Source: Gammaproteobacteria bacterium
GTDB lineage: Bacteria; Pseudomonadota; Gammaproteobacteria; Burkholderiales; Burkholderiaceae_C
Direction of reading: 5' to 3'
Assembly (NCBI GenBank): GCA_018828125.1
Contig: JAHJWB010000009.1
Coordinates: forward strand, 62,001-126,000
Length of the DNA: 64,000 bases
The position numbers and the translations under genes were made by a program. This document shows, piece by piece, positions 9,962 to 50,824 of the stretch; positions within the stretch are counted from its first letter, which is position 1; every line of letters begins with the position of its first letter. The notes below the pieces were generated by a model that was given only the letters and a program-made list of their open reading frames with translations, ran no database searches and was not told the origin of the DNA.

Positions 9962-10065
9962 CTGGGTAGGTCAGGTAGCAACGCCCAACCGGCGCACTAC
10001 CCAGCAACTAGGTGTCAGGTTGTACCCAGCGAGTCACCGTGAATACTACGACTAAATATTCGGTG

Positions 10066-10117
10066 TTTTTGGCCTCTAACGCTTATTGAGCAAGCGCTAG
10101 CAGCTATTATTTTTTGA
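10066..10117 (-). repeat. Dispersed palindromic repeat, copy 1
   Basis: Reads GGCCTCTAACGCTTATTG then AGCAAGCGCTAGCAGCTATT. It is the reverse orientation of the other copies near 18.4, 20.2, 34.8 and 43.9 kb. The core forms a stem of CGCTT with AAGCG. It lies in the 298-base gap between the LysR gene and the c-di-GMP gene. I see nothing else in that gap. Confidence 0.8.
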
Positions 10118-10259
10118 CCGATTCTTGGCTGTTCCCTGCCAAGGAATCCTGAGACAACTGGCCCTGTAACGCGGTCCGCTCACTCACTGGTCATCCTCGC
10201 GTGGGCCGCTAACCGCTCGTCGCTTTCCACGGGCTGGTGGCGGCCAGGCGATGGTAGCC

Positions 10260-18391: not shown

Positions 18392-18433
18392 GTCAAACAC
18401 ATTGCCGCGCGTCCAAACATGGCATCAATTTAT

Positions 18434-18486
18434 GAAAATTGATAGCTACCAGCGCTTATCTACCAAGCGCCAGAGGCCAATTTGGC
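18434..18486 (+). repeat. Dispersed palindromic repeat, copy 2
   Basis: Reads AATTGATAGCTACCAGCGCT, then TATCTACCAAGCGCCAGAGG and CCAATTTGGC. It is the forward orientation of the family, between the palindrome at 18348 and the DUF6150-like gene. The longest ORF of that gene would begin inside this repeat, which argues for the later GTG start. Confidence 0.8.
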
Positions 18487-18622
18487 TCAAAAAATTACAT
18501 TCACAAGCACCCTAACGAGCCCGCAGACCGCGTTTTTGGATACCCTCAGAGCGTTTGTGCGACCGGTCAGCGAGATCGGTCGTCACCCACCCTCATCGCG
18601 CAACCGCCAGAAAGGGAGCCCT

Positions 18623-20053: not shown

Positions 20054-20183
20054 ACTGGTGCCATGCCGCATCACGACGCCTGCCGGGGCGACCGGCTGCG
20101 GGCCGTGCGGCGTAACATCCTGCGGGCGATCAGGCCTGCAACAAGCCTGTCGAACCTCCCCCGAAGCGCGATCACGAGAATTC

Positions 20184-20234
20184 CTGAATTGATAGCTGCT
20201 AGCGCTTATCCATAAAGCGTTAGAGGCCTTTTTG
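20184..20234 (+). repeat. Dispersed palindromic repeat, copy 3
   Basis: Reads TGAATTGATAGCTGCTAGCG, then CTTATCCATAAAGCGTTAGA and GGCCTTTTTGA. It lies directly upstream of the chrA start at 20249, so it will be in the chrA leader or promoter. Confidence 0.8.
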
Positions 20235-20248
20235 ACCAATATTTTGAT

Positions 20249-34784: not shown

Positions 34785-34820
34785 GGGGAGGGATTATCCG
34801 CTGCCGGCAAGCACCTGTTT

Positions 34821-34890
34821 AGAAAACTATCAATTTCATAGCTACCAGCGCTTATTGGATAAGCGCTAGAGGCCAAAAACACTCAAAATT
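34821..34890 (+). repeat. Dispersed palindromic repeat, copy 4
   Basis: Reads ACTATCAATTTCATAGCTAC, then CAGCGCTTATTGGATAAGCG and CTAGAGGCCAAAAAC. This is the most complete copy, with the stem AGCGCTTAT / ATAAGCGCT and TTGG between. It lies between rlmB and the ABC ATPase gene, upstream of the first and downstream of the second. Confidence 0.85.
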
Positions 34891-34926
34891 TTGCCGTGCA
34901 TTCGTTGCACGGCTTCACACAGGCGC

Positions 34927-43094: not shown

Positions 43095-43868
43095 GTGAGT
43101 CACCCAACCGTTCTCAATATCTCCTGCTACAAGTTTGTGCCCCTGCCCGATGCTGCAGCGCTGCGCGACCTGCTGAGCGCGCGGGCTGTAGCTGCCGATC
43201 TGAAGGGCACCATCCTTCTCGCCGAGGAAGGCATCAACTTCTTTTTGGCAGGATCCGCGGACGCCGTGCGTGGTTTTGTCGATGCACTGCGAATCGATGC
43301 CCGGTTTGCAGACCTTGCACCCAAAGAAAGCTGGTCAGCCAGCGTGCCGTTTCGCAAGATGCTGGTCAAGGTCAAGCGCGAGATCATTCGCATGGACCAT
43401 CCCACCATTGCACCCGCACACGGCCGCGCTCCGTCGGTGGACCCCGCCACGCTGCAGCGCTGGCTTGCGCAAGGCCATGACGACGAGGGGCGCGAAGTGG
43501 TCACGTTGGACACGCGCAATGCCTTTGAGGTGGACCATGGCACGTTCGACAACGCCATTGACTGGCGCATCGACAAGTTCACCGAATTTCCTCCTGCACT
43601 GCGCGCCCACAAAGCCGCGCTGCAAGACAAGACGGTGGTGAGCTTCTGCACCGGGGGCATCCGCTGCGAGAAAGCGGCCATCCTGATGCGAGAGGAAGGT
43701 TTGAACAACGTCTACCAACTGGAGGGCGGAATCCTGAAGTACTTTGAACTCACCGATGGTTCGCACTACCACGGCGGCTGTTTTGTGTTCGATGAACGCA
43801 GGGTGCTGGCAGCGGACCTCTCCACCGAGCCACAGCCTGCTGCCAAAGAAAATACTATCAATAAGTGA
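43095..43868 (+). CDS. trhO: tRNA uridine(34) hydroxylase
   Basis: 257 residues, GTG start. The N-terminal acylphosphatase-like domain shows [16 protein letters not shown]. The rhodanese domain (about 130-240) carries the catalytic Cys in [14 protein letters not shown]. TrhO (formerly YceA) hydroxylates U34 of tRNAs on the way to 5-methoxyuridine or 5-carboxymethoxyuridine, using oxygen. The last codons (ENTINK and stop) are supplied by the start of dispersed repeat copy 5, so the natural C-terminus has been replaced or trimmed. Confidence 0.9.
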
Positions 43869-43915
43869 GCTACCAGCGCTTATCCAATAAGCGCCAGAGG
43901 CCAATTTGGCTTAAA
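43852..43915 (+). repeat. Dispersed palindromic repeat, copy 5
   Basis: Reads ACTATCAATAAGTGAGCTAC, then CAGCGCTTATCCAATAAGCG and CCAGAGGCCAATTTGGC. It overlaps the end of trhO: the trhO stop TGA (43866-43868) lies inside the repeat. The stem is AGCGCTTAT with ATAAGCGC. Confidence 0.85.
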
Positions 43916-43951
43916 TTTCCGCAATCCGGGCTCTGTCAGCCATGCCCAAAG

Positions 43952-47958: not shown

Positions 47959-49095
47959 ATGAGCAAACCCGATCCCCTCCCCGCCAAACGGCTCCGACGC
48001 ACCAACGCCCCGGCACCTGCGGCCGCACCAGTGGCTCCCAAGGCACTGTCTGGCAAGGCCCAGCGCCATTTCGCCATCATCGGTGCTGGCATGGCGGGCA
48101 TTGCCTGCGCACGTACGCTGGTGCAGGCCGGGCACCGCGTCACGGTTTTCGAAAAATCCTCCCAGGCCGGTGGCCGTACGGCCACCATCGACAGTCCCTT
48201 TGGCAGTTTTGACGCAGGAGCCCAATATTTCACCGTGCGCGACCCGAGGTTTGCCCGCGCCATCGACACCGTGCCCGGTATCTGCAAGCGCTGGAGCGCC
48301 AACTCCGTTCAGGTGCTCGATGCCGCAGGCCGGGTCGCAGCAGTTGGCCTGCCCCACCGCGAAGCGCACTGGGTCGCCAGCCCCGGCATGCAGTCGCTGG
48401 TGACCACCTGGGCAGATCCACTGGCCAAGGCGGGTCAGCTCATCACCCACACACGCGTCACACGCATCGAACCCGACTCGCTCAATACCCCCGGCTGGCA
48501 GTTGCGCACCGAAGGGCCCGGCGGCACACAGCATGTTTACGCCGGATTTGATGCGGTGCTGCTCGCCCAGCCCTCCGTGCCCGCCCAGGCGCTGATCTCC
48601 AGCTCCGGGCTGGACACCTCGTTGACCGATGCCCTGTCTGCCGTCGCCATTGCGCCCTGCTGGACGTTGATGCTGGCCTACCCCCAGGCGGTGCGCCCGG
48701 GCCTGACCACCCTGGGGCCCCAGTGGAACGCGGCACGTAGCACCCACCACCGCATCGCATGGCTGGCCCGCGAATCCTCCAAACCCGGCCGCAGCGTGAT
48801 CGAACGCTGGACCATCCAGGCCAGCCCAGCCTGGTCCGCAGAACACCTCGAAGACGACGAAGCCCGCGTGCAGGCCAAGCTGATCAAGGCCTTTGCCGAG
48901 GTCACCGGCATCCGCGCACAACCGTCGCATGCCGACACCCGCCGCTGGCGCTACGCCCAAACCACCCACCCCCTGGGCAAGAGCCACCTGTGGGACGCCA
49001 GCACGGGTCTGGGCGCCTGTGGCGATTGGTGCCTGGGGCATCGGTTGGAGGATGCGTTTGTGTCGGGGCTGGAACTGGCGCTCAAGGTGGCATGA
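47959..49095 (+). CDS. Renalase-like NAD(P)/FAD-dependent oxidoreductase
   Basis: 378 residues. An Ala/Pro-rich lead of about 35 residues precedes the FAD fold [20 protein letters not shown], continuing [30 protein letters not shown] and the C-terminal [19 protein letters not shown] follow. The pattern is that of bacterial renalase-like proteins, which oxidise 2- or 6-dihydro forms of NAD(P)H, or of a related amine oxidase. Its stop overlaps the start of gluQ (ATGA), so the two are co-translated. Confidence 0.85.
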
Positions 49096-50069
49096 CGGTC
49101 GGCGTGGGCGCAGCGCCGCGCTATATAGGGCGGTTTGCGCCCTCCCCTACGGGCCCGCTGCATGCGGGCTCGTTGGTTGCAGCCCTTGCCAGCTGGCTGG
49201 ATGCGCGGGCGAATGGGGGCCAGTGGCTGATGCGCATTGAAGACGTGGACACCCCGCGCTGCGTGTCGGGCGCAGCGGAGTTCATACTGCAGCAACTGGC
49301 TGCTTGTGGGCTACTGCCCGACGCTCCCCCTCAGTGGCAGTCGGCCCGGGGCGCCCTGTACCAGCGGGCGCTGGATCAGCTAGTGAGCCAAGGCCACGCC
49401 TACCCCTGCGCCTGCTCGCGCAAGGACATCGAAGACGCCCAGGCTGCCCTCGGCCATGCCCGAGAGCGGCATGCCGCGCTACCCTACCCAGGCACCTGTC
49501 GCCATGGGCTGCAGGGCCGCACGGGGCGGTCCTGGCGGTTCAATGTGACAGATTTCAAGCAAAAACGGGCTCTAGCGCTTGATAGTAAAGCACTAATAGC
49601 TATTTATTCAGTAGCAATCAACCTGTTGCAGTGGCATGACCGCCGACTGGGCCCGCAGCAGCAGGACGTTGCCAGCGCCGTGGGCGACTTTGTGCTGCGC
49701 CGCGCCGATGGGTTTTGGGCCTACCAGCTGGCCGTGGTGGTGGACGATGCCAACCAGGGCATCACCGACGTGGTGCGCGGAGAAGACCTGGCCGACAACA
49801 CACCGCGGCAGATCCTGCTGCAGCAAGCCTTGGGTGTGCCCACGCCCCGGTATCTGCACACGCCGCTGGTATGCGGCGACAACGGCGAGAAGCTGTCCAA
49901 ACAAAACGGTGCGCAAGCCCTTGATCTGACCGAGCCGCTGCATGCCTTGTCGGACGCAGCACGGGTGCTGGGACTGCCCCCATTGGCACATCCACACAAC
50001 AATTGCATCTCTGACGCATTGGCACTATGGGTGGCGGCGTGGCGACGAAACTACAATGGCCCATCGTGA
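49092..50069 (+). CDS. gluQ: Glutamyl-Q tRNA(Asp) synthetase with repeat-derived insert
   Basis: 325 residues. The class I HIGH-type motif is [14 protein letters not shown], the zinc ligands are near YPCACSRKD and CRHG, and the KMSKS-type loop is [10 protein letters not shown]. GluQRS attaches glutamate to queuosine at position 34 of tRNA-Asp. Between WRFNVTDF and LQWHDRRLG there are about 20 extra residues ([20 protein letters not shown]). These are encoded by a copy of the dispersed repeat (49561-49612), in frame. Without it the enzyme would have the usual length of about 300. It overlaps trmB by GTGA. Confidence 0.9.
49561..49612 (-). repeat. Dispersed palindromic repeat, copy 6, inside gluQ
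   Basis: GGGCTCTAGCGCTTGATAGT then AAAGCACTAATAGCTATTTA. It aligns to copy 1 (CTCTAACGCTTATTGAGCAA, then GCGCTAGCAGCTATTAT) over the whole core. It is diverged, but the end blocks CTCTAGCGCTT and TAGCTATT are kept. It is the only copy lying wholly within a coding sequence, and it keeps the frame. Confidence 0.75.
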
Positions 50070-50824
50070 CCGAACTGACCACTGCACCCAACCCCTTGAG
50101 CGCTGCACCCGCTGCAGCCCCCCGCGCGCACGGCGAAGCCCCCGCGGGCGTCACCCATCCCAAAACCATCAAGAGCTTTGTGCGCCGCGCAGGCCGCACC
50201 ACCACCGGCCAAGCCAAGGCGTTTGAAGACCTGGGCCCCCGCTTTGTCTTGCGCTATGCCGCAGCCCCGCTGGACGCAAATGCCGCATTCGGCCGCAGCG
50301 CGCCACTGGTGCTGGAGATCGGATTTGGCATGGGCGAGGCCACGGCCCACATCGCCCGGGTGCGGCCCGACGACAACTTTCTGTGCTGCGAAGTCCATGA
50401 ACCCGGAGTTGGAGCGCTGCTTAAGCGCATTGGCGAGCAAGACCTGACCAACATCCGCATCCTTCAGCACGATGCCGTCGAGGTGATTGACCACATGCTG
50501 CCCGAAGGCTGCCTGGATGGGGTGCACATTTTCTTCCCAGACCCCTGGCACAAGACCAAACACAACAAGCGCCGCCTGATCCAGTCGCCTCTGGTGGCCA
50601 AGCTGGCTGCCCGACTCAAACCCGGCGGCTACCTTCACTGCGCCACCGACTGGCAACCCTACGCAGAGCAGATCCTGCAGGTGCTGAGCGCCGAGCCTCT
50701 GCTCCAGAACACCACCTCCGGCTTTGCACCACAGCCCGACTACCGCCCCCTGACCAAGTTCGAGAACCGCGGCTTGCGGCTCGGGCATGGGGTGTGGGAT
50801 GTCGTGTTCGTACGCCGCAACTAA
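50066..50824 (+). CDS. trmB: tRNA (guanine-N7-)-methyltransferase
   Basis: 252 residues, GTG start overlapping the gluQ stop (GTGA). The AdoMet motif I is [17 protein letters not shown] and the substrate motif is [18 protein letters not shown]. It methylates G46 in the variable loop of tRNA. An Ala/Pro-rich lead of about 35 residues is longer than in E. coli. It is the third tRNA-modifying gene in the window, after trhO and gluQ. Confidence 0.92.

Follow-up and report, generated by a model that had tools for sequence, protein, structure and literature searches.

The 64-kb window, by which we mean the whole stretch of DNA that was analyzed, contains a forward-strand open reading frame that is predicted, from family scores and a fold match, to encode the tRNA glutamyl-Q(34) synthetase GluQRS (Table 1). 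The frame scores 464.8 bits against NF004313 (cut-off 380) and 387.8 bits against TIGR03838 (cut-off 276.7), and its AlphaFold2 model (mean pLDDT 87.9) finds E. coli GluQRS as its best structure matches (4a91, E = 4.3e-26, TMt 0.83; 1nzj, TMt 0.86). The coordinates given for gluQ include the stop codon, and the start codon was picked from the open reading frame. At its 5′ end gluQ overlaps the end of the upstream ORF (47959–49095) by four bases (49092–49095), and the trmB ORF (50027–50824) begins within its 3′ end (50027–50069); the three are perhaps one operon.

In a 17-row GluQ alignment, the HAGS and KLSKQ stretches are for the most part invariant, as are C106, C108, Y132 and C136, and we take these to be the catalytic and zinc motifs; the enzyme motifs are intact, as described in the initial annotation of this DNA. 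The same annotation had proposed an in-frame insert of about 20 residues, and this figure is correct, because the stretch from WRF to WxDR comprises 37 residues in the window protein vs 17 in four Acidovorax genomes with an empty site. In the AlphaFold2 model, the extra residues sit between strands 147–150 and 179–183, with a mean pLDDT of 52 for residues 161–170 and 66 for residues 171–180; these low values and the position between two strands suggest that the loop is probably flexible.

The dispersed repeat and its copy in gluQ

The observation that a dispersed repeat is read in frame inside gluQ is confirmed. BLAST with positions 49480–49700 returned 39 further places in the same genome (best E = 1.7e-13, 84% over 67 bp), and a covariance model of the repeat, built from 38 rows with the GluQ copy of the window among them, finds six copies in the window, the gluQ copy included; the other five are those previously noted near 10.1, 18.4, 20.2, 34.8 and 43.9 kb. 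As an independent check on the gluQ copy, an nhmmer profile was built from 37 other copies of the same genome (one of them, L006, itself intragenic) with GluQ left out. It matches the window segment and, over 150 GluQ frames amounting to 141 kb of gluQ sequence, returned nothing outside the segment at E < 0.1. The repeat does lie at 49561–49612, where it was originally placed, but those limits are too narrow, the element being longer (Table 1).

The repeat is palindromic and about 65–78 bp long, with a consensus (76 copies, five genomes) of about TTTTGAGTGTTTTTGGCCTCTAGCGCTTATCCANTAAGCGCTAGCAGCTATNAAATTNATAGT and a GC content of 36–41% in the copies of the window, which has no Rfam match at the gathering score. 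At least 150 strong copies are present in the genome to which the window belongs (150 were scored and all matched). Of the 76 dispersed copies, 19 are open in the GluQ frame, 37 in another forward frame and 47 in a reverse one; LIATSAYWISARGQKHSK-like readings of the reverse frame occur, for example, at L056, L080 and L082. Along the chromosome of genome G012, the 150 scored copies lie on both strands all round, and their strands form local runs (chi-square 31.4, 9 degrees of freedom, p = 2.6e-4, ten bins), such as 12 plus and 2 minus in 0.5–1.0 Mb and 3 plus and 14 minus in 3.0–3.5 Mb, with no obvious replichore pattern.

Table 1. Features of the window, with positions in the window, and further Acidovorax proteins in which the repeat is read in the same frame, with their loci.
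Feature	Position or locus	Strand	Basis or remark
gluQ, tRNA glutamyl-Q(34) synthetase GluQRS (predicted)	49092..50069	+	NF004313 and TIGR03838 above cut-off; AlphaFold2 match to 4a91 and 1nzj
Codons 148–181 (W148 to W181), extra residues and surroundings	49533..49634	+	empty-site relatives have about 20 residues fewer
Repeat copy read in frame inside gluQ	49548..49625	+	cmsearch 62.3 bits, E = 1.2e-12; nhmmer; BLAST
Ala codon GCT of the AGCTAT core	49599..49601	+	GCT in 57/58 Ala codons of the column, 59 distinct segments
Second half of the GCTA-N9-TAGC dyad	49612..49615	+	GTA GCA here; ATA GCA in most relatives
Dispersed repeat copy	10052..10129	+	cmsearch 66.6 bits
Dispersed repeat copy	18421..18497	-	cmsearch 57.1 bits
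Dispersed repeat copy	20170..20247	-	cmsearch 61.9 bits
Dispersed repeat copy, best match to the covariance model	34816..34893	-	cmsearch 92.1 bits
Dispersed repeat copy	43844..43921	-	cmsearch 64.5 bits
WaaA/KdtA	L141; also L143, L150, L154, L124, L134		repeat within family-match span
PgeF/YfiH	L142; also L145		repeat within family-match span
PF10023 aminopeptidase	L006; also L155		repeat within family-match span
HemD	L144		repeat within family-match span
Sugar ABC ATPase	L146		repeat within family-match span
Enoyl-CoA hydratase	L147		repeat within family-match span
HrpA	L148		repeat within family-match span
YgjP-like peptidase	L149		repeat at 68–90, before the Pfam domain (141–366); stretch also in L131

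The GluQ segment in Acidovorax and the Comamonadaceae

Within the genus, 45 of 47 genomes gave a GluQ match, that of G031 being only at the level of a glutamyl-tRNA synthetase; 44 loci were fetched, and 40 were readable across the site (L044, L048, L050 and L052 were not read). The segment is repeat-like in 34 of the 40, typically with 37 residues from WRF to WxDR. Four loci (L042, L043, L049 and L051) have the short 17-residue form of an empty site, and two (L046 and L047) have another, GC-rich insert. These GC-rich inserts make segments of 41 residues in L046 (G024) and 32 in L047 (G022), and that of L046 retains TATAAIDAAG, perhaps a vestige of the repeat form. Among the loci that were not read, L048 starts as the repeat form and then enters a run of N, and L052, the GluQ of G007, continues from WRFNTTDF into a different, longer insert with RSELVEGPVHRERFERPELVQGP-like residues, which seems to be an element of another kind in this loop.

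The GluQ loci of the genus, of other genera and of named relatives, like the WaaA loci considered below, are those that scored best against insert-carrying queries, a selection that favors insert-bearing loci. All 27 loci fetched from other genera look repeat-derived by peptide and length, and 14 of the 26 classified match the repeat by DNA at E ≤ 0.01; they are the best-scoring of 199 matching genomes and not a fair sample. Judged by match length, GluQ is long in 62, middle in 3 and short in 81 of 146 family genomes outside the genus. Among the best 80 of 580 named relatives, for which the query was an alignment of mostly insert-carrying rows and the status was judged partly by eye, repeat-like GluQ occurs in Acidovorax and in some Rhodoferax, Polaromonas, Giesbergeria, Comamonas, Curvibacter, Xylophilus and Variovorax; it is lacking in other members of Rhodoferax, Polaromonas, Giesbergeria and Variovorax, and is missing from nine of ten Hydrogenophaga loci and from the Ramlibacter, Limnohabitans and Delftia loci seen. 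Beside the four empty Acidovorax genomes, 24 GluQ loci have 12 residues or fewer at the site.

The DNA profile built without GluQ matches 48 of the 91 segments of at least 28 residues at E ≤ 0.01 and a further 23 weakly (the 91 include five duplicate records), vs none of the 51 shorter segments at E ≤ 0.01; the other 20 long segments, some of which are other inserts, gave no forward match to the profile. The segments of L048, L165 and L232, which the peptide pattern did not parse, also match it. In L232, from a metagenome-assembled genome (contig JAFEES010000012.1), the stretch from WRF to WxDR spans 85 residues, with a GC-rich, proline- and glycine-rich insert upstream of the repeat-like part NMPLALYGQTQTASLSIAN. 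Repeat-derived segments thus occur in many genera at the same site of GluQ and in the same frame, mostly with equal length. The initial annotation had assumed that relatives normally lack the segment, which does not hold, given the 34 of 40 readable loci in the genus and the many other genera that carry it; on the sequences compared, the segment is more than a special local insertion, as it recurs across genera of the Comamonadaceae.

The repeat content of the genomes was compared with the state of GluQ. The four Acidovorax genomes with an empty site have 1, 2, 3 and 3 repeat copies, vs 89 to at least 101 in the genus genomes with repeat-like GluQ. No copies were found in G008, whose GluQ is distant, or in G001, in which no GluQ was found; G007 has 73, and G022 and G024, with the other insert, have 51 and 98. 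In the family, the repeat is present in 48 of 62 genomes with long GluQ, in 1 of 3 with middle and in 5 of 81 with short GluQ, counts that are not independent because the genomes are related. This cross-table takes the GluQ status from match length only, covers 146 of 200 genomes, and leaves out three genus genomes and split or unlisted matches; the repeat-positive genomes outside it are G049, G063, G071, G075, G130, G142, G153, G187, G214 and G219. A homologous segment in orthologues free of the repeat, the observation that had been named as speaking against an inserted repeat, is not the rule, since long GluQ usually occurs in repeat-bearing genomes and GluQ is mostly short where the repeat is scarce, although 14 of the 62 long-GluQ genomes gave no repeat match and stand as exceptions.

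In a tree of 137 GluQ proteins calculated with the segment removed (5 duplicate rows omitted, 8 loci unparsed for state), the repeat form is scattered over the family, and the four empty Acidovorax proteins form one clade within repeat-bearing ones. The best tree has 20 changes of state, at least 4 of them forced by well-supported branches, with states taken from segment length and six long segments (L046, L047, L175, L217, L218 and L229) moved by eye to a class of other inserts. One old gain followed by many losses and several gains at one site are both possible histories; the shared length and frame of the segment favor the former. One GluQ in the tree, L239, from a record titled Rickettsia typhi (metagenome-assembled genome HRS-ES1-bin-450), groups with Burkholderiales, and the bin is probably mislabelled.

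Other host proteins and conservation of silent positions

When the genus was searched with the peptide read in the GluQ frame only, and one locus per host was then scanned with Pfam and NCBIfam, the repeat was found in the same frame in at least eight further proteins (Table 1) and one doubtful case, so that the parallel drawn at the outset with Rickettsia palindromic elements is apt. The doubtful case is DinG (L157), in which the repeat (59–79) lies upstream of the conserved domain (113–809); it was not counted, nor were the open frames at L008, L151, L152, L153, L156, L158, L159 and L160, which, judged by eye, look like shadow or spurious frames. In PgeF, the alignment with E. coli YfiH (1z9t) breaks at the repeat, the jump being flanked by query residues 149 and 180 and by residues 154 and 158 of the structure. 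For WaaA, 35 loci were sampled (the best-scoring ones and six from the genus); most of the loci read carry the segment, L299, L307 and L309 being short forms, and 17 of the 31 read by pattern match the repeat at the DNA level (E ≤ 0.01, searched in a small database). The HemD segment was recognized by pattern in 29 of 30 fetched genus loci (the exception is L327) and by DNA at E ≤ 0.01 in 26 (the exceptions are L319, L327, L333 and L336). In Acidovorax HemD (L144, L311–L340), the repeat is the loop after FVSGNAV; measured against what we take to be the usual loop length, the protein has seemingly gained no length, and the repeat may thus stand in place of an earlier loop rather than being a plain insertion.

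The nucleotides of the GluQ segment are conserved, not the peptide alone. The segment has a GC3 of 0.44 vs 0.84 in the rest of gluQ (63 loci, two of which carry unrelated GC-rich inserts). In 59 distinct 30-codon GluQ segments, the Ala that precedes Ile, Thr or Pro is encoded by GCT in 57 of 58 cases, vs 4% of Ala codons elsewhere in the genes; at the Ile of SIA, 45 of 46 codons are ATA (2% elsewhere), and the Ala that comes next is GCA in 46 of 52 (10% elsewhere). Among 188 conserved columns, rare codons dominate three of the four inside the segment and none of the 184 outside, a control for which the codon frequencies include the segment itself; the highest share of GCT in the 27 conserved Ala columns outside the segment is 13%. 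The same Ala codon is GCT in all 27 distinct HemD segments (3.8% elsewhere) and, in the WaaA alignment (34 loci read, with L293 out of register, L307 having a gap and L299 unparsed), in 31 of the 32 loci with Ala in the column, the exception being GCC in the short L309; counted by pattern, GCT is found in 26 of 30 WaaA loci (5% elsewhere). The corresponding binomial p values (1.6e-78 for GluQ, 6e-39 for HemD and 2.9e-30 for WaaA) are too small, because related sequences are treated as independent.

The nucleotides that are kept in the genes are those kept in the dispersed copies. Conservation in genic and dispersed copies is correlated over all 78 positions (Spearman 0.49) and over the 26 third positions (Spearman 0.44, p = 0.026), and GCTA is invariant in 77 copies from five genomes, an invariance that is overstated since the dispersed copies compared are the best-scoring ones. 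WaaA and HemD keep only the first half of the dyad (GCTA), the second often being GAAGC or AGAGC, and part of the GluQ segments share letters that are uncommon in the dispersed copies, such as CAG as the ninth codon (25 of 59 segments) and CAA as the eighteenth (22 of 59).

In 76 copies from five genomes, the dyads showed no covariation beyond that of shuffled alignments (85.9% paired cells vs 86.5% in the shuffles, with 484 of 500 shuffles as high). A conserved RNA hairpin fold was therefore dropped as a candidate; that the paired positions do not covary points to recognition of the sequence rather than of an RNA fold. Of 30 Y1_Tnp loci, drawn from genomes other than that of the window and totalling 98646 bases, one has the repeat nearby, and Y1_Tnp is present in 44 of the 47 genus genomes, repeat-poor ones included. 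One genome (G046) has 37 Y1 transposase matches (PF01797), most with an identical score, vs 0–3 in the other 46, perhaps a recent IS200/IS605-like burst.

Interpretation and comparison with known repeats

The repeat copy in gluQ is translated, and the data taken as a whole make it on balance probable that this old, dispersed palindrome of the Comamonadaceae is kept there as a sequence-specific nucleic-acid site, the function being deduced from the pattern of conservation. The insertion into gluQ would date from a common ancestor of much of the family, and the copy would then have been inherited, with repeated losses or secondary changes. Tolerance of the insert would come from its position, as it lengthens a flexible loop that joins two strands and, along the sequence, is remote from the active-site motifs. 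Its letters would persist because they form a putative site, with the core CGCTT...AA.CG...AGCTA[T/C]...TAG, for a DNA- or RNA-binding factor that may act at dispersed copies both between and inside genes. On this view the site would determine the peptide, and not the reverse. More tentatively, and as a possibility to which we give somewhat less than even weight, one family-wide nucleic-acid site may dictate the loop residues in GluQ, WaaA and HemD alike, with silent positions held in many genera against the codon bias of the genes.

The shared letters could instead be the product of homogenization, the gluQ, waaA and hemD copies being functionless and overwritten by gene conversion or re-insertion from dispersed copies. 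Ten copies from each of four other genomes and 37 own copies were compared with the GluQ segments. The window segment is 0.77 identical to one copy of its own genome, the segment of G171 is closer to its own copies (0.59) than to others (0.49–0.52), and that of G152 partly so (0.56 to its own and 0.51–0.53 to three of the four others, but 0.60 to those of G171). However, the segments of G000, G036 and G216 show no preference for the copies of their own genome; the evidence, clear in G171, partial in G152 and lacking in three of the five genomes, is weak. Moreover, the best-scoring dispersed copies are as different within a genome (0.63–0.66) as between genera (0.62–0.64), which fits an old set of sites held by their motif and not a recent burst, and the CAG and CAA codons that part of the GluQ segments share are uncommon in the dispersed copies. 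We consider homogenization unlikely.

Rather unlikely, too, is a selfish coding repeat of the Rickettsia kind, whose insertions survive as harmless loop peptides and are retained through drift and slow decay. The same-frame copies in the further proteins of the genus, the position in a loop modeled with low confidence and the decay of many segments are all as expected for such a repeat, but its silent positions should drift toward GC-rich codons, whereas almost all segments read retain GCT and ATA, and the copies bear no sign of recent spread. Selection at the level of translation, for rare codons that cause pausing in the loop, would account for the conserved GCT, ATA, GCA, TCA and CCT, which are uncommon in these genes; yet the same letters are conserved in the dispersed copies, specific letters rather than rarity are kept, and 107 of the 114 copies of a matching motif in Acidovorax ebreus lie between genes (PMC5217627), which together make this reading very improbable. 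Chance resemblance or an ordinary variable loop, for which the varying length of the loop in some relatives (13–24 residues) might speak, can be set aside in view of the BLAST E value and of a repeat model that matches only within the segment.

If the reading of one family-wide site is true, the peptide is carried since the gene must carry the site, and the dispersed copies would make up one genome-wide regulon or chromosome-organizing system with a putative reader. Protein-coding palindromic repeats have so far mostly been viewed as selfish DNA that proteins tolerate; the insert described here occurs in many genera, at set positions of unrelated enzymes and with its silent positions conserved, and draws attention to a repeat that has a putative reader and, in its own genome, at least 150 copies. 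Since synonymous recoding would alter the nucleotides while leaving the peptide as it is, whether such repeats act is directly testable.

The motif GCTTAT(N)5AAGCG of Acidovorax ebreus fits letter for letter inside the repeat consensus. It was published, together with ATAGCT(N)22CAAAAG, as a potential novel motif, with 107 of its 114 copies intergenic (44 between convergent, 59 between co-oriented and 4 between divergent genes) and 5 in genes (PMC5217627); the largely intergenic placement, with few copies between divergent genes, speaks for a function at the ends of genes or in organizing the chromosome, and against promoters. The second motif, found in Polaromonas naphthalenivorans with 18 of 125 copies in genes (PMC5217627), may belong to the same family as the window repeat. 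The part of that report available to us contains nothing on in-frame protein insertions or family-wide conservation, and in the open-access literature, which leaves most subscription papers outside its scope, we found no report of this repeat inside proteins.

Repetitive extragenic palindromes (REPs) of the GTAG/CGTC type are 20–40 bp long and lie mostly between convergent or co-oriented genes, the GTAG ones often near RAYT transposases; intragenic copies are described, in Thauera among others, and other species carry them in tRNA synthetase genes (PMC3733652), so that the betaproteobacterial setting, offered as a novelty in the initial annotation, is no first. The window repeat resembles them as a short palindromic repeat inside open reading frames, but its consensus (76 copies) is longer and has no GTAG/CGTC end tag, and the internal GTAG/GCAG stands 3′ of the palindrome. 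The BRE, of about 90 bp and 69% GC in Bordetella, sometimes in tandem, is likewise a betaproteobacterial repeat with some copies wholly inside coding sequences, and has one copy in Acidovorax sp. JS42 (PMC3110155); going by the descriptions, the window repeat is set apart from it by length, by its GC content of 36–41% and by its count of at least 150 copies.

Rickettsia palindromic elements are the closest known kind on our analysis. They are dispersed, open-frame palindromes found in frame inside unrelated conserved enzymes, where they are apparently tolerated (PMC2229807). The window repeat is likewise dispersed and palindromic and is also found in frame in unrelated protein genes, and orthologues without the insert exist for GluQ, for PgeF (compared with YfiH) and for WaaA (L299, L307 and L309). 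It differs, by description, in its length of about 65–78 bp vs 105–146 bp, and in its occurrence in free-living betaproteobacteria, at the same site across many genera, with conserved silent positions. What is new in comparison with the known protein-coding palindromic repeats is the combination of old, fixed sites in several enzymes with conservation at silent positions.
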